Shown in pieces: positions 40,623 through 54,766 of a stretch of DNA of 64,000 nucleotides. The DNA comes from Actinomycetes bacterium. GTDB lineage: Bacteria; Actinomycetota; Humimicrobiia; Humimicrobiales; Humimicrobiaceae. Location of the stretch: NCBI GenBank assembly GCA_022396035.1, contig JAIOXO010000005.1, forward strand, positions 1-64,000, given 5' to 3'. The position numbers and the translations under genes were made by a program. Position 1 is the stretch's first letter, and every line of letters begins with the position of its first letter. The notes under the pieces were generated by a model that was given only the letters and a program-made list of their open reading frames with translations, had not been told where the DNA came from and made no database searches.

Positions 40623-41420
40623 TTAAAGGTTCTCGTCCATGCTTCCCGACCTGAAGCCGGCCAGGTCTATGGTGATATAATTAAAACCCAGCCCGGTCAG
40701 GTAATCATGAATCTTATGGTTGAGCTGGTTTTTAAACAGCAGCGGCAGTTTATCTGGCTGCAGCTCTATCCTGGCCAACGGATGGTGATACCTTACCCTT
40801 ACCACCTCAAAACCCAGCTCCTTTATATACTGCTCTGCCAGGGCAATCTGATTGAGATGCCGGGCATCAAGTTTTTGGCCGTAGGGTATCCGGGATGCAA
40901 GGCAGGCTGAAGAAGGCAAATTATAATTGGACAGGCCCAGCAACCCGGCGCATCGCCTTACCTCTTCTTTGGTAAATCCCAGCCGGGCTAGAGGGCTTAG
41001 CACTTTCATCTGTTGTAAAGCCCGGATGCCGGGCCGGTAGCTGTTAAGATCATCTACATTACTGCCTTCAATAATATGGTTGAATCTTAGTTGCTGCTGC
41101 AGGCTGCCAATATTGGAAAAAATGTTTTGCTTGCACCAGTAGCACCGGTTTCTGGGGTTGTCCCTTATGTTCTCTACCTCCAGCAAATTCAGGGTAAGAA
41201 GATATTGTTTTATACCAATTTCCTGAGCTATTTTACGGGATTGGTCTGCTTCCTGCCGGGGTACAAGTTCGGATACCGCAGTAGCGGCAACCGCCGAATC
41301 CCCCAGAGTACAATAAGCAATCTTTGCCAGCAGGCTGCTGTCTACGCCTCCCGAAAAGGCCACTACTGCAGATTTGAGGTTATAAATATACTTTTTTAAT
41401 TTTTCAATTTTTTCACGCAT
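40623..41420 (-). CDS. larE: ATP-dependent sacrificial sulfur transferase LarE
   Basis: 265 residues. PP-loop FSGGVDSSLLA, RCYWCK, ASSACLASRIPYG-type segment (SSACLASRIPYG) holding the sacrificial cysteine. LarE gives its own cysteine sulfur during synthesis of the nickel-pincer nucleotide cofactor of lactate racemase-type enzymes. Divergent from larC over 91 bp. larA and larB are not in the window. Confidence 0.9.
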   Translation of the reverse strand: MREKIEKLKKYIYNLKSAVVAFSGGVDSSLLAKIAYCTLGDSAVAATAVSELVPRQEADQSRKIAQEIGIKQYLLTLNLLEVENIRDNPRNRCYWCKQNIFSNIGSLQQQLRFNHIIEGSNVDDLNSYRPGIRALQQMKVLSPLARLGFTKEEVRRCAGLLGLSNYNLPSSACLASRIPYGQKLDARHLNQIALAEQYIKELGFEVVRVRYHHPLARIELQPDKLPLLFKNQLNHKIHDYLTGLGFNYITIDLAGFRSGSMDENL

Positions 41421-41511: not shown

Positions 41512-42684
41512 ATGGATAAATTTCTATATATTGACTGTTTTTCAGGGATAAGCGGGGATATGATGGTAGCCGCCCTGCTGGATTTAGGTTTGGACCTGGA
41601 AATAATCCGGCAGGAGCTAAAAAAACTGCCCCTAGAAGGTTATGAAATAGAACTGCTGGAGACCAGAGTAAAATCTCTGGCTGCTAAAAAGTTTGAGGTA
41701 AAGATAATAGAGCAAGAAAGCAGGAACTACCGGGATATCCGGAGCATGTTAGAACAAAGCAGGCTGAAAGAAAGCATTAAAAAGGATAGCCTGGATATGT
41801 TTGGGATACTAGCCCGGGCTGAAGCTAGGGTTCACGGCTGCAATGAAGAACAGGTTCATTTTCATGAGGTGGGGGCCATAGACTCCATCGTGGATATAGT
41901 CAGTGTGGCTACTGCCATAGATAAACTAAAAATTACCGGAGTTTACAGTTCAAACATACCTCTGGGCAGGGGCATGGTGGACTCAGATCACGGGAAGATA
42001 CCGGTTCCTGCCCCAGCAGTTTTGGAGATACTTAAAGGCTTGCCGGTATATGCAGGGCCCTTTGAGTTTGAAACCACTACTCCTACCGGGGCGGCAGTTA
42101 TTAAAAAATATGTCCAGGATTTTATACCCCTGCCGGAAGCGTCCATTGAAGCTGTTGGCACCGGGGCGGGCAGCCGCCAGCATACAAGCATTCCCAATGT
42201 TCTGAGGCTTCTAAAATTTAGCACACCGGTTGAGGCCAAACCATCCGGCCTTAAATTACTGTCTGCCAATATAGATGATTTAAGCCCGGAAATTATGGGA
42301 TATGTGGCTGAAAAACTGTTAGAGCAGGGAGCCCTGGATGTATGGATTGAAAATATATTAATGAAAAAGGGAAGACCGGGATTCAAACTGTGTGTACTGG
42401 CTCCTGCCGCCAGGGAAAACCAGCTCACATCTTTAATCTTTTGCCAGACTACTACTCTGGGAGTGCGCAGCATAAGCGTGGACAGACATACTGTTGACAG
42501 ACAGGTAATCCAGTTAAACTTAAGCTATGGAAAAGCCTTGATTAAACTGGGGCTCTATAAGGGTAAAGTAGTAACCGCAGAACCTGAATACGAATCCTGC
42601 TTTTCCCTGGCCCAGCAAACCGGCAGGCCTTTAAAACAGGTTTATCAGGAGGTAAAGCAGATCTACCATGAGAAAGCGGAGTAG
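41512..42684 (+). CDS. larC: Nickel insertion protein LarC
   Basis: 390 residues. DCFSGISGDMMVAALLDLG at the start, HFHEVGAIDSIVDI, TPTGAAVIK and the C-terminal ferredoxin-like part after NIDDLSPEIMGYV match full LarC. In some lactobacilli the two halves join by frameshifting; here they are one continuous frame. Inserts Ni into the pincer cofactor. Ribosome site GGAGGG. Confidence 0.93.
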   Translation: MDKFLYIDCFSGISGDMMVAALLDLGLDLEIIRQELKKLPLEGYEIELLETRVKSLAAKKFEVKIIEQESRNYRDIRSMLEQSRLKESIKKDSLDMFGILARAEARVHGCNEEQVHFHEVGAIDSIVDIVSVATAIDKLKITGVYSSNIPLGRGMVDSDHGKIPVPAPAVLEILKGLPVYAGPFEFETTTPTGAAVIKKYVQDFIPLPEASIEAVGTGAGSRQHTSIPNVLRLLKFSTPVEAKPSGLKLLSANIDDLSPEIMGYVAEKLLEQGALDVWIENILMKKGRPGFKLCVLAPAARENQLTSLIFCQTTTLGVRSISVDRHTVDRQVIQLNLSYGKALIKLGLYKGKVVTAEPEYESCFSLAQQTGRPLKQVYQEVKQIYHEKAE

Positions 42685-43976: not shown

Positions 43977-44333
43977 TTGCTCAAGGATACATTAGGTGCC
44001 TATATTGATAACATGGCAAAATTTCTTATTTTTATAGGTGCCAGCCTGTTAATTATTCTGGTGCTTTTTCTGGTTTCAAACCGGCATAAGAAAGCTGGCC
44101 TGAAAACCATGGAAGGATTTAAAAAAGGACCATACCTGTATAAGAACCTGATGGCACTGGGTACTGTTTTTTTAACCCTTATATTTTCTATATTGTTTAT
44201 ATCAGATATAATTCTTCTGATATACGAATTAAAGCTGGGGCCACCCCTGTATATTCTGGCAGGTTTTATCCTCCTTTTAATATTTATGTCTGCATATGTG
44301 GTAAAATCCAGGGTATTTAACCAGGACAGTTAA
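43977..44333 (+). CDS. NuoA-like membrane subunit of a complex I-like operon
   Basis: 118 residues from TTG 43977, which follows GAGGT by 6 nt; the frame is open to 43932 but without a ribosome site. Three membrane helices and the length of NuoA. The loop KTMEGFKKGP and the second helix LFISDIILLIYEL take the positions of NuoA's YECGF and FDVE motifs; only parts of these are kept. It heads the operon in the NuoA position. Similarity alone is weak; position and topology carry the call. Confidence 0.6.
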   Translation: MLKDTLGAYIDNMAKFLIFIGASLLIILVLFLVSNRHKKAGLKTMEGFKKGPYLYKNLMALGTVFLTLIFSILFISDIILLIYELKLGPPLYILAGFILLLIFMSAYVVKSRVFNQDS

Positions 44334-44335
44334 TA

Positions 44336-44734
44336 ATGAAAACAGCAGTAAAAAAAAACTTGAATATATTGGTAACCGGGTTTGGTTGCTGTAAACAGGA
44401 GATATATGCAACCAGAAGTCCCCTGTATGATTTGGAAAGATTCGGGGCTACTTTTGTATCCTGTCCCGAAGATGCGGATCTGCTGATTATACAGGGTTTC
44501 ATGAACCCCCAGATGCAGGCCAGAATAATCAATTTCTATAACCGGATGGCCCATCCTAAATGGGTAGCTTTAGTGGGAACCTGTGCCCTGGAGGGCTGTA
44601 CCTTGGGCGATAATGCAGATCAGATGAAACAGCTGAAAAAGGAAATTCCGGTGGACTTATACGTACCCGGCTGTCCGCCAAGGCCGGAAGCATTTATTTA
44701 TGCAATATTAAGGTTAATGGACAGGCAAGATTAA
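44336..44734 (+). CDS. NuoB-like Fe-S subunit
   Basis: 132 residues. All four N2-cluster ligands of complex I are seen: adjacent Cys18-Cys19 in GFGCCKQE, Cys83 in GTCALEG, Cys113 in VPGCPPRPE. Adjacent cysteines are the complex I pattern, in contrast to the CxxC of group 4 hydrogenase small subunits. Soluble, expected at the membrane-arm junction. Its stop overlaps the next start by one base. Confidence 0.88.
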   Translation: MKTAVKKNLNILVTGFGCCKQEIYATRSPLYDLERFGATFVSCPEDADLLIIQGFMNPQMQARIINFYNRMAHPKWVALVGTCALEGCTLGDNADQMKQLKKEIPVDLYVPGCPPRPEAFIYAILRLMDRQD

Positions 44735-46242
44735 TGGTAAAAAAAATGTTTAGCAAAGGCTATGGTTCGCCCCATTATGTATATATAGACAGGCTGGAAA
44801 AAAAGCTGGTTCAACAACTGGGTGCAAAAATAGGCCGCATCCAGAAAATGGGTGGAAATATGCTGTGTGAAATTGGCGGCTCAGACCTTAAAAATCTTCT
44901 AAAAGAGCTGAAGGATAATCCGGAGTTTTCCATAAGCAGTTTCAGGGATATAAAACTTTTCTGGAAAAGGGGCAATCCCTATGCGCTGATTGTGCTGTAT
45001 TCATATGAGAACAATTTTAATTTGCTTATCAGGGTTCCCCTCAGCGCTGAAGGTTACCGGAACCTTTATTTTGGCCTGGTACAGACTACTGCTGAATATT
45101 TTCCGGAAGCAGGATTTTTTAAAAGGCATAAACTATTGGAGCGGGAAGAGCTTGATTTTAGTCTGTATAGCCAGCCAGCCAGCGGCCTGGACAGCTTTGA
45201 TATACATGGCCAGCTAAACCAGGGCAGGATAACCAGGGCAATTGTGGATGTGTCACTGGCCAACATATCTCAGCATGGACTGCTGAACAGGCAGGATTTA
45301 CTGGGAAGGGTAGCTGTGATAAGCATGTTTGACTATGATGCAGGAATATTCCCGGAGATAGGATTATGTACGGGCATAGAAAAACTGCTTAATATCAGAG
45401 TGCCCAAAAGGGCCAAGGCTTTAAGGATGATAGTTAGTGAGCTGTCCCGCATAGCCAGCCATCTTGGCAGCATAAGCAATGTGCTGGAAGCTGTGGGATA
45501 CGATATTCTCTACAGCCAGGTATCAATACAGAGAGAACATGTTTTAAAAATTATGGAAACAATAACCGGAGCCAGGCTTCTGCCAAATTTTGTCCGCATA
45601 GGGGGAGTAAAAAAAGATATTAATTATGAGAAGATAACTACCATAAAAAAGGTTTTGCCTGTCCTGCTGAAAAAGATAAGGGATATTGAAGCGAATATGA
45701 TGGAAAATATTCTGGTTTTCAACAGGCTAAAAGGCAAGGGTGTCCTTACCAAAGAACAGGCTATTAGCTTTGGAATATCCGGTCCCAATCTAAGGGCTAC
45801 CGGTGTCAGAAAAGATTTGAGAAAGGAAAAAGACTATCTGCTTTATGAGGGAATATCTTTTACTACACCCCTGGGCAGATACGGTGATTGCCTGGAAAGG
45901 GTAGCTGTAAGGTTTAAGGAAATTTATCAGTCACTGAAAATAATCCATTATTGCCTGGTAAATATTCCGGAAGAAGAAGCAAGAAAGGCCAAAAAGGTTG
46001 CAGACCAGGGCTTTCCTTCCAAGCCTTATTTCTCCAGTGTAGAGTGCCCCCACGGTATGTTTCATATATATATGGAGACCGGAAGCAGCGGTATAGAAGC
46101 CATGGCAGTTATGGGGCCTTCCATTAACAGCCTAATGGCTGCAGAAAAAATACTGGAGGGCTCATTACTGGAAGATGTGTCCCTGATTATGGCCAGCCTG
46201 GATATAAGCGGCGGCGAGATTGTAAGGAACAGGTGGGGTTAA
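44734..46242 (+). CDS. NuoC-NuoD fusion-like subunit without NiFe ligands
   Basis: 502 residues: NuoC-like part (about 1-130), then NuoD/49-kDa part with GIEKLLNIRVPKRAKALR, SELSRIASHLGS, TGVRKDLRKE and a final SLDISGGEIVRNR. Where hydrogenases have the N-terminal CxxC, this has FDYDAGIF, and the C-terminal CxxC is absent, so it is not a hydrogenase. The usual HRG of NuoD near GYxHRGxEK is also changed (ISQHGLL). One protein replaces two subunits. Confidence 0.85.
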   Translation: MVKKMFSKGYGSPHYVYIDRLEKKLVQQLGAKIGRIQKMGGNMLCEIGGSDLKNLLKELKDNPEFSISSFRDIKLFWKRGNPYALIVLYSYENNFNLLIRVPLSAEGYRNLYFGLVQTTAEYFPEAGFFKRHKLLEREELDFSLYSQPASGLDSFDIHGQLNQGRITRAIVDVSLANISQHGLLNRQDLLGRVAVISMFDYDAGIFPEIGLCTGIEKLLNIRVPKRAKALRMIVSELSRIASHLGSISNVLEAVGYDILYSQVSIQREHVLKIMETITGARLLPNFVRIGGVKKDINYEKITTIKKVLPVLLKKIRDIEANMMENILVFNRLKGKGVLTKEQAISFGISGPNLRATGVRKDLRKEKDYLLYEGISFTTPLGRYGDCLERVAVRFKEIYQSLKIIHYCLVNIPEEEARKAKKVADQGFPSKPYFSSVECPHGMFHIYMETGSSGIEAMAVMGPSINSLMAAEKILEGSLLEDVSLIMASLDISGGEIVRNRWG

Positions 46243-46244
46243 TT

Positions 46245-47177
46245 ATGCTGATGATCTTAAAGAAAGTTTTATATGTATTTTTAACCCTGGGTATTAATCT
46301 GTATATTTGTTCCTACCTTATGTCTAAGGTCTCGGCCAGGGTAGAGTCAAGGAGGGGTTATGCAGCCAGCAGATTCGGCAGTATAACCTATCCATATTTT
46401 AAAACGATAAAATATCTTTCCAAGCAGAGCAGTATAAATTTATGGGATGCTCTATTGTTTTTGTTTTCTATTTTGCTGTGGGCGGTGATACCCATAAATG
46501 CCAGTATACTGATTCTGGATTTCAATTCAGGGTTTGTGGTTTCCATCCTGTTTTATCTGGCCGTTCTGGCCATGCATGTGCTGGCTGCCAGGTCCAGGTA
46601 CAAGTGGATGCCTGATCACATATTCAGGGAAGCAGCCACCATAGCTTCATTGTTTTTGCCGGTCTTAATCAGTTTAATATCGGTAATAATGATAAATAAT
46701 ACCATGAATTTAAAGGAGCTGGTTAACCAGCAATATGATTACTGGAATATAGTATACCAGCCTCTGGGTTTTCTGGTGGTGTTCATAGTTGCTGTTCTGC
46801 AGGTAAAGGTATGGGGGCTGACCAGGAAAAATGTGACCCTATATGGCAGAAAAATTGAGAAGGAAGGCAATGGTTTGCCCCGGGCATTAAGCAGGTTTTC
46901 TAAATACATGCTGTTATTTTATATTATTGCATTAATGAGCATATTTTATTGGGGAGGCTGGCTGGACCTGTATTTTATTGATGGCAATCTGCTGCTGATT
47001 TTAAAATTTTATGTTATGTTTATGCTGGTAATACTTATAGAAAAGGCAATACCGGAAATTGATAGCTATAAGTATATAGTAGACATAAACTGGAAGTTTT
47101 TAGTACCGGTTTCTGTTTTTAATTTTTTATTAACCCTGATTTTCCTGATAGTAAGAAAGGTATATGGACTAATTTAG
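46245..47177 (+). CDS. NuoH-like membrane subunit
   Basis: About 310 residues, eight or so membrane helices; ATG 46245 is preceded by GGTGGGG. SARVESRRGYAASRFG corresponds to NuoH's ERRxxxRxQxRxGPNR, and the last helices (YWGGWLD) to FLGGW. The NuoH PFDLPEAE quinone-chamber loop is replaced by a basic LTRKNVTLYGRK stretch, and the EY motif before FLGGW is KY. Divergent anchor subunit. Confidence 0.75.
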   Translation: MLMILKKVLYVFLTLGINLYICSYLMSKVSARVESRRGYAASRFGSITYPYFKTIKYLSKQSSINLWDALLFLFSILLWAVIPINASILILDFNSGFVVSILFYLAVLAMHVLAARSRYKWMPDHIFREAATIASLFLPVLISLISVIMINNTMNLKELVNQQYDYWNIVYQPLGFLVVFIVAVLQVKVWGLTRKNVTLYGRKIEKEGNGLPRALSRFSKYMLLFYIIALMSIFYWGGWLDLYFIDGNLLLILKFYVMFMLVILIEKAIPEIDSYKYIVDINWKFLVPVSVFNFLLTLIFLIVRKVYGLI

Positions 47178-47609
47178 ATGATAAGGATAATAAGAAATTT
47201 TTTAAAAAATTTAGGGAATTCGCTTACCAGGCCGGTGACGGTTAATTATCCTAAAGAGAAGATAATTATACCGGAAGGCAGCAAGGGCATGTTGCACTTG
47301 AAGCTTGACCCGGATAACCTGGAAATTATCTGTGATACCTGTGAAAAATGTGTGGAAGCCTGTCCCCAAAACTGCATCAGCCTGAAAAAAAGCAGTGACC
47401 AGAAAGGACAAGTAGTGCTGGAAGAATTCTACCTGGATGCGGGTAAATGTATTTTTTGCGGCAACTGTGTAGAGGTATGCGGCAAGAAAGGCCTGGAGAT
47501 GTCCTACAGGTATCAGCTGACAGAATACGAAAGAGAAGGGCTGGTTTTTGAGAAGCTGGACCTGGTAAAGCAGGCAGATTTTGTCATTAGAGATTTTTGG
47601 TCAAAATAG
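47178..47609 (+). CDS. NuoI-like 2[4Fe-4S] ferredoxin subunit
   Basis: 143 residues. Two cluster motifs: Cys52-55-58-62 (CDTCEKCVEACP) and Cys91-94-97-101 (CIFCGNCVEVCG), with an extra Cys66. Fits the NuoI/EchF role of carrying electrons to the NuoB cluster. The second motif ends in CG, where CP is usual. Begins one base after the NuoH-like stop. With no E, F or G genes, it is probably the electron entry point, perhaps from ferredoxin. Confidence 0.88.
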   Translation: MIRIIRNFLKNLGNSLTRPVTVNYPKEKIIIPEGSKGMLHLKLDPDNLEIICDTCEKCVEACPQNCISLKKSSDQKGQVVLEEFYLDAGKCIFCGNCVEVCGKKGLEMSYRYQLTEYEREGLVFEKLDLVKQADFVIRDFWSK

Positions 47610-47612
47610 GAA

Positions 47613-48116
47613 ATGATTCAGACAGTAATTAACAATTTACAACTTGCATTTATAATAATTATAACGCTTATGTCTGTACTGTCTGTATTTTTAAAAAAAG
47701 ACCGGGCCAGGCTGGTGCTCTATTTCTTTATAATGCTGGCCTTATGCATTTTTGCCCTTCTTCTTTATTCAGGGGTATTTGTGCTTATTCTGGGTACTTA
47801 TTTCCTGGTTCTATACATACCGGTATATTATTTTTATCATCATGACCAGGTGCCAGGGGCTAAAGGTGGCCATATAAGGCGGTGGGAGCTGGCAGGGGCA
47901 ATAATAGCAGTAGCGGCGTTGGGATTTTGGTTTTATCGAAGTTCCGTACCAACGGTGGCTGGATTGGAAAGGGTGGAGACCATAACCATACTTAATTATC
48001 TGGATGTAGCTATCGAGTATTTTCAAAATTACTATTTGCTAATAGTTTTGCTGATGGGGGCAATCTTTGTATCCCTGGTATGGTTTATATTAATTATTGA
48101 TAAACGGAGGCAATAG
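47613..48116 (+). CDS. NuoJ-like membrane subunit
   Basis: 167 residues, five membrane helices, the length and topology of NuoJ, placed between the I- and K-like genes as in nuo operons. A GVFVLILGTYFLVLYIPVYY helix takes the place of the conserved NuoJ glycine-rich TM3. Sequence similarity is low; the call rests on order and topology. Confidence 0.6.
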   Translation: MIQTVINNLQLAFIIIITLMSVLSVFLKKDRARLVLYFFIMLALCIFALLLYSGVFVLILGTYFLVLYIPVYYFYHHDQVPGAKGGHIRRWELAGAIIAVAALGFWFYRSSVPTVAGLERVETITILNYLDVAIEYFQNYYLLIVLLMGAIFVSLVWFILIIDKRRQ

Positions 48117-48118
48117 TT

Positions 48119-48457
48119 TTGCAGTTAAACATAGTGGTATATATAAGTTTCTTTCTATTCCTGCTGGGCCTGTTTGACCTTATATACTTTAAGGGTTTGG
48201 TCAGGGTAGCCTGGGGGCTGCAGCTGATTATTTTCTCCATCCTTATAAATTTTTTAAGTTTTTCATTTTTCTTATACCAGGGGTCTCTCTGGGATAAAAC
48301 TATGATGATAATGGCTTTGATCCCGGTTTATATGCTTTTGTTTATGCTATTTTTTTATGCCTATTCCATACTTGAAGGAGAAAGGGCAGACTTGATGATA
48401 CAGCTTAATTTTTTCGAGTGGGATAAAAGCATCTGGTGGGGGGAGGATAACCGGTGA
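48119..48457 (+). CDS. NuoK-like membrane subunit
   Basis: 112 residues from a TTG start, three membrane helices, the size of NuoK/MrpC. The conserved NuoK glutamates are not clearly kept. The C-terminus has an added aromatic/acidic tail (FFEWDKSIWWGED). Overlaps the antiporter-like gene by 4 bp. Call rests on order and topology. Confidence 0.6.
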   Translation: MQLNIVVYISFFLFLLGLFDLIYFKGLVRVAWGLQLIIFSILINFLSFSFFLYQGSLWDKTMMIMALIPVYMLLFMLFFYAYSILEGERADLMIQLNFFEWDKSIWWGEDNR

Positions 48458-49965
48458 TGGCTTTTTTGGAATACCTCAGGGCCAATCTTAATTTTATTTA
48501 TGCAGTAATAGCTATAGGTATAGCCATAGTGGTAAATACTTTTTTTGGCCTTTCTAAAAAACAGGAAATAAAGAAACTATCCCTGGCAGTTGCCTTGATG
48601 GGCATGGGAGCCTCAATCTTTTTTACTATTTACAGTTTTATTACCCGGGGAGTATCTACCAGTATGGTGTTATCTTTTGGTTCCATACATCTGGCTGAAA
48701 TGCTGCTGATTTTGTTCATAGCATTAAACCTGCTGGTATTCCTGTCACTGGGCCAGTATAATCAGGACGACTTTACCAAGATAATTATAATATTTTTATT
48801 CGGCCTGGCTTCCCTGCTGGTTTTGGTGCTGTCCAGGAATTTTTTGGCCATTCTGGTGGCTTGGTCTTTGTTTGTGCTTTCTAATTTCCTTCTGATTACC
48901 GGTGGCTCGGGAGAGAAAGAAAGTACCTACATTTTAAAATTTTTCCTGAACTCTGTATTTGCATTGTTGTTGATGCTTATCGGATTTTCTTTCCTGTATT
49001 CAGTAACCGATTTTAAGAACCTGCAGCAGGTACTGGAATCAGGATCTCCGGATAATCCCTTTTATGGTATAAGCTTTTTATTCATTATGTTTTCTGTTTT
49101 TATTTTTATGTGCGCCTATCCCCTGCATGGAAATTACCTGAAACTGGTAAAGCGTACCAACAGCATGGTAACCTCGGTTATCTGGCTTTTTTATCTGCCT
49201 GCCGGCTTTATAATACTGCTAAAATTCAGGGAGGTAGCCTATTATTTTCTAACCGAATACAACGTGCTGCCCCCGGTGTTACTGGCTATAGCTGCCATAT
49301 GTATACTGGGTCCGGCCATAGGAGCCTTTTCTACCAGAAGTCTTAAGAGGATTCTGGGTTTTAACTATCTTACCTTTATAGGCCTTGCCCTGCTGGGGTT
49401 TTCATTGTTTTCTGCAGGGATGGTTGAAGGCAGCAGGCTGGAATGGATGATTCTGGCCAATATTTTAAACATGGTAATCTGCATAATTCCGGTCTGGGTT
49501 ATTTTTTCCAGGCTGCCGGATTCAGTAGACAGCCTTAAGGGGTTTATGAGGGGTTATACTTATCTGGGTATAAACATGTTTATAGTAATGCTAAGCTGGC
49601 TGGGTATGGCAGGTACGCCCGGGTACATGTTAAGGCACTTCATGCTGGCGCCACTAGCCCAATACATCAGAGAGGGCAATACGGGCCTGTTATCTGGTTT
49701 AGATATAGCAACCCTGGCCGTAGTTTGTGTTGCTTTTTTGCTTATTGCGGCAAACATGGTCAGGCTATGGGTGTTTATGTTTTCCGGCAGCAAAGACAAG
49801 GCAGGGCCCAATGTATATTACCACCGCGCCTACCATGTTTATGTAACCCTGTTTACCCTGCTGGTTCTGGCCCTGGGCATATGGGGCCTGCTGGAGTTAA
49901 CAGGGGTAATTTCTGCCTCAGGCATCAGTGTGATTAATCCCGGTTTTTTAAGACCACCTTCGTAA
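48454..49965 (+). CDS. NuoN/L/M-like (Mrp-type) antiporter subunit
   Basis: 503 residues, about 14 membrane helices. The TM7 lysine is present in TYILKFFLNSVF, the TM8 region in HGNYLKLVKR, and the Q/S-KR segment in STRSLKRILGFNYL. The TM5 glutamate expected in a xLELxSL pattern appears replaced (AWSLFVLSN). It is the only antiporter-type subunit of the cluster, implying one main ion channel instead of three. Confidence 0.8.
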   Translation: MMAFLEYLRANLNFIYAVIAIGIAIVVNTFFGLSKKQEIKKLSLAVALMGMGASIFFTIYSFITRGVSTSMVLSFGSIHLAEMLLILFIALNLLVFLSLGQYNQDDFTKIIIIFLFGLASLLVLVLSRNFLAILVAWSLFVLSNFLLITGGSGEKESTYILKFFLNSVFALLLMLIGFSFLYSVTDFKNLQQVLESGSPDNPFYGISFLFIMFSVFIFMCAYPLHGNYLKLVKRTNSMVTSVIWLFYLPAGFIILLKFREVAYYFLTEYNVLPPVLLAIAAICILGPAIGAFSTRSLKRILGFNYLTFIGLALLGFSLFSAGMVEGSRLEWMILANILNMVICIIPVWVIFSRLPDSVDSLKGFMRGYTYLGINMFIVMLSWLGMAGTPGYMLRHFMLAPLAQYIREGNTGLLSGLDIATLAVVCVAFLLIAANMVRLWVFMFSGSKDKAGPNVYYHRAYHVYVTLFTLLVLALGIWGLLELTGVISASGISVINPGFLRPPS

Positions 49966-49966
49966 T

Positions 49967-50755
49967 ATGGATGCAGAACAGCAACAGAAGAGATTTAATA
50001 TAAAACACCTGTTACTGGTTATTCTGGTATTAATTATTGGCTTGGGTGTGGTATTAAGCATAAGGCAGCTGCCCTTTGACCGGGAGTATGAACCCCCTAC
50101 AGCCCTGGTAAATATGCTGCCCCGCTATAGAGTAATAGACATGGATGACATTGGTATTGAAACCGATGCTGACAGGGATGGCATAAATGACCAGAAAGAT
50201 ATAATGCTGGGAGCCAAAAAACAGCTGGAAGTAAAAGCAAAAAATATATTGCTCATGCCTGATGAGCCCAATTATTATCAGGGAGGGGATCCACCTGGGG
50301 ACCTGGCGCTGGCCACCGATATTGTGGACAGGGCTTTCAGGGAAGCTGGCTATGGTTTAAGGGAGCTGGTAAATGAGGATATCAACCAGAACTTTGACCA
50401 GTATCCGCTGCGGGCTATCTGGAATCAGAAATACAGCGATCCGGATATTGATTATCGGCGGATCCAGAATCTGGAGGTCTTTTTCAGGCGCAACGCAGAA
50501 CCGTTAACCGCAATTTTTAATCCCGCCGAAAAAGACAACCTGCAGCAGTGGCTTCCCGGAGATGTGGTATTCTTTGATATGGACAGGGACGGGTACACAG
50601 ACAATGTTGGAATTGTCTCTGACAGCACCACCAGAAGCGGTGCTACCAAGGTTATATATAATTACATTGAGCCGGGATATACGGTGGAAAAAGACATATT
50701 GGGAAAAGAGAAAATTACCGGTCACTTCCGTTATCCTAAACCGGATGCTTTTTAA
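49967..50755 (+). CDS. DUF1287-like pseudoenzyme with acidic metal-binding loops
   Basis: 262 residues: one N-terminal membrane anchor (about 14-31), then an extracellular DUF1287-like domain (NYYQGGDPP, TDIVDRAFREAG, DYRRIQNLEVFF, PGDVVFFD, ITGHFRYP). Family members usually read CTD where this has ATD, and HIGIVSD where this has NVGIVSD, so the presumed Cys and His are lost. Two DxDxDG loops, DADRDGIND and DMDRDGYTD, could bind Ca2+. One base after the antiporter stop, so part of that operon. Confidence 0.7.
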   Translation: MDAEQQQKRFNIKHLLLVILVLIIGLGVVLSIRQLPFDREYEPPTALVNMLPRYRVIDMDDIGIETDADRDGINDQKDIMLGAKKQLEVKAKNILLMPDEPNYYQGGDPPGDLALATDIVDRAFREAGYGLRELVNEDINQNFDQYPLRAIWNQKYSDPDIDYRRIQNLEVFFRRNAEPLTAIFNPAEKDNLQQWLPGDVVFFDMDRDGYTDNVGIVSDSTTRSGATKVIYNYIEPGYTVEKDILGKEKITGHFRYPKPDAF

Positions 50756-53968: not shown

Positions 53969-54130
53969 ATAAATATATTAATTCTTTTAAGTGCTTATTA
54001 TACTACTTACTAATTAAATCCAAGTCAAGACAGATAAGCACATTAATTTTTATTTTATCATATTTTTGCTATTATATATTAAAATTCCATGCTTTGTATG
54101 GAAAAATACAACCAAAAAAGGAGTACAGAT

Positions 54131-54766
54131 ATGGCAAAATATCAAGACCTAGCTGATGCTATCATTGCAGGCGATAATGTAAAAAGCAAGGAGATTACCC
54201 AGAAGCTTGTAGATGATAATGTGGAGGCAACCGATATCCTGAATGAAGGGCTGGTCCCGGGCATGAATGTAGTGGGCAAGAAGTTCAAGGCAAATGAAAT
54301 GTACATACCTGAAGTACTGATAGCAGCCAGGGCTATGCATGCAGCCATGGACATTATAAAGCCCCTCTTAACTGAATCCGGAGCTCCCTCCAAGGGCTCG
54401 GTACTTATAGGAACCGTACAGGGAGACCTGCACGATATAGGCAAGAACCTGGTGGGAATGATGCTGGAAGGCGGAGGCTTTGAGGTAGTGGATGCAGGCG
54501 TGGATGTAGCCCCCGAGAAATTTGTAGAGGAAGTAAAGAAAAACGGAATCAAGGTAGTTGGCCTGTCAGCTCTTTTAACTACCACCATGCCGGTAATGAA
54601 AGATATAATTGAAGCGCTCTCAGCAGACAGCGACACCAAAGAGGTCAAGGTTATGGTAGGCGGAGCTCCCCTTACCCAGGAATATGCAGATTCCATTGGT
54701 GCAGCCGGATATGCTCCCGATGCTTCCAGTGCAGTAGACCTGGCCGAACAGCTGTTAGCTGGTTAA
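54131..54766 (+). CDS. Corrinoid (cobalamin-binding) methyltransferase protein
   Basis: 211 residues from ATG 54131 after AAAAGGAG. N-terminal four-helix B12-binding cap, then the cobalamin domain with GDLHDIGKNLVG (His ligand), VGLSALLTTTM and VGGAPLT. Like MtbC/MtaC/MttC, it would carry a methyl group for a methyltransferase pair, yet none is next to it. It ends at a terminator, so it is a single-gene unit. Confidence 0.92.
   Translation: MAKYQDLADAIIAGDNVKSKEITQKLVDDNVEATDILNEGLVPGMNVVGKKFKANEMYIPEVLIAARAMHAAMDIIKPLLTESGAPSKGSVLIGTVQGDLHDIGKNLVGMMLEGGGFEVVDAGVDVAPEKFVEEVKKNGIKVVGLSALLTTTMPVMKDIIEALSADSDTKEVKVMVGGAPLTQEYADSIGAAGYAPDASSAVDLAEQLLAG

Follow-up and report, generated by a model that had tools for sequence, protein, structure and literature searches.

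In Pyrococcus furiosus, the ferredoxin-fed MBS complex, a relative of complex I, has lost the equivalents of the quinone-site residues H38 and Y87 and serves a non-quinone acceptor, but it still pumps, using Mrp-type antiporter modules to make a Na+ gradient (PMC7684303). The Ehr complexes, relatives of group 4 hydrogenases with Mrp-like subunits, have lost the NiFe ligands, and their acceptor is unclear (PMC6349859). Complex I itself, including its 11-subunit forms without NuoEFG and archaeal Fpo, shares with the locus reported here the subunits A, B, C, D, H, I, J and K plus one N, in nuo order. This locus is a nine-gene operon at positions 43977–50755 (+ strand) of the window, the whole 64,000-nucleotide stretch that was analysed (positions 1–64,000 of contig JAIOXO010000005.1, assembly GCA_022396035.1), from a member of the order Humimicrobiales.

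Judged from its sequence, the encoded complex is by descent a member of the complex I superfamily that differs from the described complexes, and its features suggest that complex I machinery has been turned to another use, as a membrane reductase of a different kind that is fed by ferredoxin. We tentatively propose, with a confidence that stops a little short of even, a membrane-anchored reductase that depends on ferredoxin, does not pump and passes its electrons to an acceptor other than quinone, accompanied by an outward-facing DUF1287 protein that lacks its predicted triad. The operon retains the iron-sulphur ligands of complex I, has lost the residues for pumping and quinone binding across the order, and is maintained under selection.

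Operon architecture and distribution

Nine head-to-tail open reading frames (ORFs), separated or overlapped by only a few bases, fill 99.8% of the span in the order A-B-CD-H-I-J-K-N-DUF1287. Pfam and NCBIfam searches recognised five subunits, namely the NuoB-like subunit (44336–44734, 132 amino acids; PF01058, 2e-23; NF005012 over cut-off), a NuoC–NuoD fusion termed CD (44734–46242, 502 amino acids; PF00346, 4e-56), the NuoH-like membrane anchor (46245–47177, 310 amino acids, 46245 being the most likely start; PF00146, 1e-26), the NuoI-like subunit with two [4Fe-4S] motifs (47178–47609; TIGR01971, 4e-28) and a single-copy NuoN-type antiporter-like subunit (48457–49965, 502 amino acids; PF00361, Proton_antipo_M, 6e-7). 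The remaining membrane subunits were recognised weakly or not at all: A (43977–44333, 118 amino acids from a TTG start at 43977 that homologues back), J (47613–48116, 167 amino acids, without a Pfam match) and K (48119–48457, 112 amino acids; NF004322, 8e-4). A scan for promoters gave a result equal to that of shuffled sequences.

Profile comparison with hhalign, in which profiles of homologues within the order were aligned to canonical complex I profiles, assigned every subunit to its expected complex I partner. Small subunits matched NuoA (E = 3e-4), NuoJ (2e-6), NuoK (3e-7) and, for the C domain, NuoC (2e-9), and H, B and I matched theirs at 5e-49, 2e-54 and 5e-47; mismatched pairings all gave E > 0.02 (>0.05 for A, >0.06 for J). 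The antiporter-like subunit fitted NuoN best (3e-17), followed by NuoM (6e-9) and NuoL (1e-6). An AlphaFold2 model of CD (predicted local distance difference test score, pLDDT, 85; predicted template modelling score, pTM, 0.89) had E. coli NuoCD as its best Foldseek match over the whole length (TM-score 0.85). These results bear out the original prediction, made from the letters of the window alone, of nine tightly packed genes in nuo order from an A-like subunit to DUF1287 without E, F and G; the nine ORFs also lack L and M. In gene content the locus thus differs from complex I by the absence of L, M and any NADH or F420 module and by the extra DUF1287 gene.

An alignment-based scan of genome contigs matched the CD gene in 29 of the 35 genomes of the order, spanning 13 of 15 genera at 33–63% identity, and in all 15 genomes with a completeness of 90% or more and a contamination of 5% or less; the match in one genome (G023) is a canonical-type D, not the CD protein. 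Named relatives, all Actinomycetota metagenome-assembled genomes (MAGs), include Ca. Humimicrobium oleiphilum UBA1414 and Ca. Calidifonticultor daggyaiensis. Besides the window, 16 contigs of the order span the whole operon, all with the identical nine genes in sequence, and four more end inside it; because it recurs in this way, the arrangement is not a chance one. Outside the order, among the genomes searched, close relatives of the large subunit occur only in three genomes of a sister family (f2) and in one f3 genome, the sister-family form having a separate D in the order A-B-D-H-I-J-K-N. In the source genome the operon is the sole Complex1_49kDa locus, and several relatives carry a canonical complex I alongside it. 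In the literature we found no paper on DUF1287 with complex I or on Humimicrobium with a hydrogenase; a brief earlier mention of the operon is conceivable in a Wood-Ljungdahl pathway survey of Actinobacteria.

We also considered that the operon is a decaying complex I heading for loss, in keeping with the many canonical functional residues that are missing and with a relative (L051) whose N gene is split into two frames. Ratios of non-synonymous to synonymous substitution rates (dN/dS) between the window and its nearest relative are nevertheless 0.04–0.37 across the operon genes, values that are indicative only, as dS approaches or exceeds saturation in most of the genes, and neither operon contains an internal stop. 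The gene order is kept in every spanning contig and the gene in every near-complete genome (15/15). Decay is accordingly rejected as highly improbable, on account of the dN/dS values and the order-wide conservation; the original prediction had named a gene order absent elsewhere, together with signs of decay, as what would speak against it, and the opposite was found.

Iron-sulphur wire and pump residues

The iron-sulphur ligands of the complex have been preserved. Subunit I keeps all eight cluster cysteines in 20/20 sequences, and the four N2 ligands of subunit B, anticipated from the adjacent-Cys pattern in the original prediction, are present in the window as the CC pair at 18–19, C83 and C113; across the order the first cysteine is kept in 20/21 sequences and the other three in 21/21. 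In retaining the adjacent pair in 20/21 sequences, subunit B differs from MbsJ of MBS, which has one non-coordinating cysteine. At one locus (L046, 7791–8186) the first cysteine of the pair is gone (GACR vs GCCK). Because the operon contains no NuoE, NuoF or NuoG, the simplest route would be for electrons, most likely from reduced ferredoxin, to enter at subunit I, with its two [4Fe-4S] clusters, and to pass from there to the N2-type cluster in B.

The membrane arm presents a different picture. For a residue census, each family alignment was read against E. coli numbering, and motif positions in the N subunit were anchored on the neighbouring AWxL and PLH motifs. The residues lost are those assigned to the E-channel and antiporter ion pairs (PMC9271201; PMC5938582), and they are near-universal in reference complex I. 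In K, the equivalent of NuoK E36 is absent from all 18 sequences (Gln in 17/18) and nothing corresponds to E72; in A, all 14 sequences have non-ionisable residues at the positions of NuoA D79, E81 and E102; in H, NuoH E157, D213 and E216 are kept in 0/20. The glutamate of transmembrane helix 5 (TM5 Glu), TM7 Lys and TM8 Lys of the N subunit are each kept in 0/19, and all three are kept in 13/13 reference NuoM, in a comparison resting on 5 NuoN and 14 NuoM reference sequences. A hydropathy-based census found no conserved acidic residue in the transmembrane cores of A, H, J and K, and in those of N only one Arg and one Glu, near the C-terminus; residue mapping of NuoJ was unstable between alignments and was dropped.

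The sister lineage has already lost some of these residues, with Ser in place of both K E36 and NuoH E157 and Pro in place of TM8 Lys; it retains TM5 Glu and has Arg at the TM7 Lys position. As only part of the set is gone there, the pump residues appear to have been lost stepwise. Because both the E-channel and the antiporter residues are replaced family-wide, the complex is unlikely to couple redox chemistry to ion pumping in the way known from complex I. Moreover, Rnf occurs in 29/35 genomes of the order, so that ferredoxin-driven ion pumping is already covered.

An unlikely alternative is that the complex is still an ion pump, a minimal Fpo- or Ehr-like machine in which ferredoxin oxidation drives H+ or Na+ through the one antiporter-like subunit by way of other residues. 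The full ABCDHIJK core and one NuoN-type subunit are retained and the membrane subunits are under constraint; the equivalent of NuoH E228 is kept in 20/20 sequences, K258 and R308 of H are invariant, and conserved Lys and Arg occur in both H and N, so that other residues could form a different proton or Na+ path. The relatives MBH and MBS, furthermore, pump with antiporter modules (PMC7684303). Set against this are the family-wide absence of the three N residues, both K glutamates, A D79 and E81 and most NuoH acidic residues, and transmembrane cores of A, H, J and K that lack a conserved acidic residue. The original prediction, that ferredoxin oxidation may be coupled to ion pumping, thus fares unevenly: ferredoxin is retained as the probable donor, whereas pumping is disfavoured by the replaced residues. 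Under the reductase reading, the membrane arm (A, H, J, K and N) would serve as an anchor, a scaffold or a lipid-facing access route and not as a proton pump.

Acceptor site, phylogeny and quinone context

The quinone site of the CD protein is altered throughout the order, with the ligand His38 and its partner Asp139 both kept in 0/21 sequences. His38 is present in 29 of 30 sequences from the phylum, the exception being an ECPHG-type protein of G280. At the Tyr87 position the order has Tyr (12/21) or Trp (7/21), a pattern shared with the phylum's true quinone enzymes. In the H subunit the PFDLPEAE quinone loop is replaced, as had been read from the window. Where canonical sequences have an ExxRG or ExxKG segment, the CD protein carries ECP(H/D)G (437–441 in the window), found in 21/21 sequences of the order, in 3/3 of the sister family and in the G280 paralogue, and in none of the 29 canonical ones. 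The equivalent segment of NiFe enzymes (EAPRG) lines the active site. A non-quinone acceptor would be reduced at this Glu-Cys-Pro-His/Asp-Gly motif, where B, CD and H enclose the former quinone/NiFe pocket. MBS, in which the H38 and Y87 equivalents are lost, is a precedent for such a change of acceptor.

Neither NiFe CxxC pair was found in the CD protein when it was aligned with HycE. In a phylogeny of large subunits, the proteins of the order formed a clade of their own (support 100/100), joined with the sister family at 99/98 and with G280 at 100/72, and all three lay on the complex I side with HycE elsewhere; the tree holds few hydrogenases and leaves out Mbh, Mbx, MBS and Ehr, its long branches were flagged by the program, and a few NuoC rows taken in by mistake fall apart from the rest. 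The absent CxxC pairs and the tree together lead us to reject a group 4 [NiFe]-hydrogenase and, with the lost residues, agree with the earlier view that the complex is neither a standard complex I nor such a hydrogenase. The likeness to complex I extends to the B and I cluster ligands, the CD model and the side of the tree, and the difference to the loss of His38/Asp139, the E-channel carboxylates and the antiporter Glu/Lys pairs and to the altered NuoH loop. The loss of NiFe ligands is shared with Ehr, whereas the operon is nuo-ordered with A, C and J; the gene set and order of MBS are likewise unlike those of the operon. Its single NuoN-type subunit, nuo order and tree position tell against its being an Ehr, Mbx or MBS complex, the last of these contrasts being drawn from a tree without Ehr, Mbx or MBS sequences.

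In another family of the class, one contig (L117, G280:C47) has a canonical nuo cluster and, immediately after it, a further B-C-D-H set that the contig end cuts off; the D of this set has ECPHG and lacks His38, and the set is likely an intermediate. A further locus (L123, G027:C176) encodes an extra D protein that groups with HycE and matches PF00374, within a group 4 hydrogenase-like cluster. The order also has NiFe hydrogenases, and the source genome encodes one short hydrogenase large subunit of 438 amino acids, read as group 3-like by its length.

A ferredoxin:menaquinone oxidoreductase, either non-pumping or weakly pumping, is a distinctly unlikely alternative to which the NuoD fold and the aromatic residue at the Tyr87 position nonetheless lend some weight, as do MenG and an over-cut-off MenA in the source genome and MenD and MenA in some relatives. 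The loss of His38 and Asp139 in 21/21 sequences and the replaced NuoH loop oppose it. Menaquinone genes are also patchy, MenD being over cut-off in 7/35 genomes of the order and MenA in 11/35, although many of these are incomplete MAGs in which salvage is possible; the 28 genomes with MenD below cut-off include the source genome, where MqnA/D was not found either. Genomes of one genus (g5) keep the operon intact without a recognisable MenA, and genomes with a canonical complex I keep it too. Since the operon persists where MenD or MenA cannot be recognised, the complex appears decoupled from known menaquinone synthesis, and a strict quinone enzyme is disfavoured by the lost ligands and the patchy quinone genes. 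In the source genome, MenG and MenA are convergent and side by side (L159 7092–8689, G000:C32), a pair for which we offer quinone salvage or another upstream route as a reading.

DUF1287 protein and proposed role

The last gene of the operon (49967–50755; PF06940, 3e-35) encodes a membrane-anchored protein with one N-terminal helix followed by a DUF1287 domain, which charge and hydropathy predict to face outward. Its model (pLDDT 75, a moderate value) most resembled NlpC/P60 and amidase folds in the PDB by Foldseek, none at E < 0.001. The operon protein thus shares the over-cut-off domain and the NlpC/P60-like fold of the DUF1287 family, but its copies have lost the predicted Cys-His-His triad, and in this order it always stands last in the complex I-like operon. 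At the triad positions, inferred and not taken from a solved DUF1287 structure, Cys is kept in 9/26 operon-type copies and each His in 0/26; nine of the 26 lie on other contigs and are operon-type by score, their linkage not having been seen. All three residues are present in a sister copy (L116), and in the sister lineage (G080) the gene, with its triad intact, lies two genes away, as seen on the only contig long enough to show it. Constraint within the operon is strongest on DUF1287, which has the lowest dN/dS (0.039) and is 76% identical between the window and the nearest relative. Loss of the predicted triad together with this low ratio indicates that catalysis has seemingly gone while strong selection was kept. 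More than a neighbour, the gene belongs to the operon throughout and is strongly conserved, and the probable role of its product is that of a structural cap or a module for binding a ligand.

Most genomes of the order also have a second DUF1287 paralogue of ~300 amino acids outside the operon, equally without the predicted triad; that of the source genome (G000:C3 67354–68244; L160 7355–8245) lies beside arsenate-resistance-like genes named by eye.

The strong constraint on DUF1287 despite its lost predicted triad, and its NlpC/P60-like fold, would also suit a transporter or sensor gated by redox state, with the electron state of B and CD being signalled to the outward domain, for regulation or for work on the cell envelope. 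We give this possibility a slim chance, as the complex has no signalling domain, contact between DUF1287 and the complex is putative, and the sister lineage has its triad-bearing DUF1287 two genes away.

The non-pumping reductase is the reading that we prefer, and several points weigh against it. An anaerobe would pay dearly for spending low-potential ferredoxin electrons without conserving their energy, and no dedicated partner gene beyond DUF1287 was found among the operon and flanking genes. To these are added the retained charged residues of H and N, with the alternative ion path that they could offer, the small antiporter reference set and the unmapped NuoJ, as well as the quinone-like residue at the Tyr87 position and the MenA and MenG of the source genome. 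A bolder version, in which the operon defines a new class of ferredoxin-dependent membrane reductase with a Cys-His active site (ECPHG) and an outward pseudo-enzyme subunit, its pump and quinone site erased stepwise from the G280 type through the sister family to the order, is one that we would sooner doubt than assert.

The flanking genes (AI-2E transporter family, LarC-like, PHP-like and others) were rejected as further conserved partners, being syntenic but ordinary-looking chromosomal neighbours. Just upstream lie LarC-like and LarE-like genes of nickel-pincer cofactor synthesis (41512–42684 and 40623–41420; named by eye), the former syntenic in 14 other contigs. Downstream, a B12-binding corrinoid-protein-like gene (54089–54766; likewise named by eye) is syntenic in eight other contigs of the order.

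Questions about pump residues in complex I are usually asked by point mutation. A natural complex that has lost nearly all the proposed pump residues throughout an order, with its iron-sulphur wire under selection, can help to tell the parts required for pumping from those that matter only to electron transfer or assembly. For two MAGs of potential acetogens, a genome study of the clade reported Rnf and the Wood-Ljungdahl pathway but no NADH-quinone oxidoreductase (PMC7325909). In this lineage of uncultured anaerobic Actinobacteria, the operon would mark a further electron outlet.

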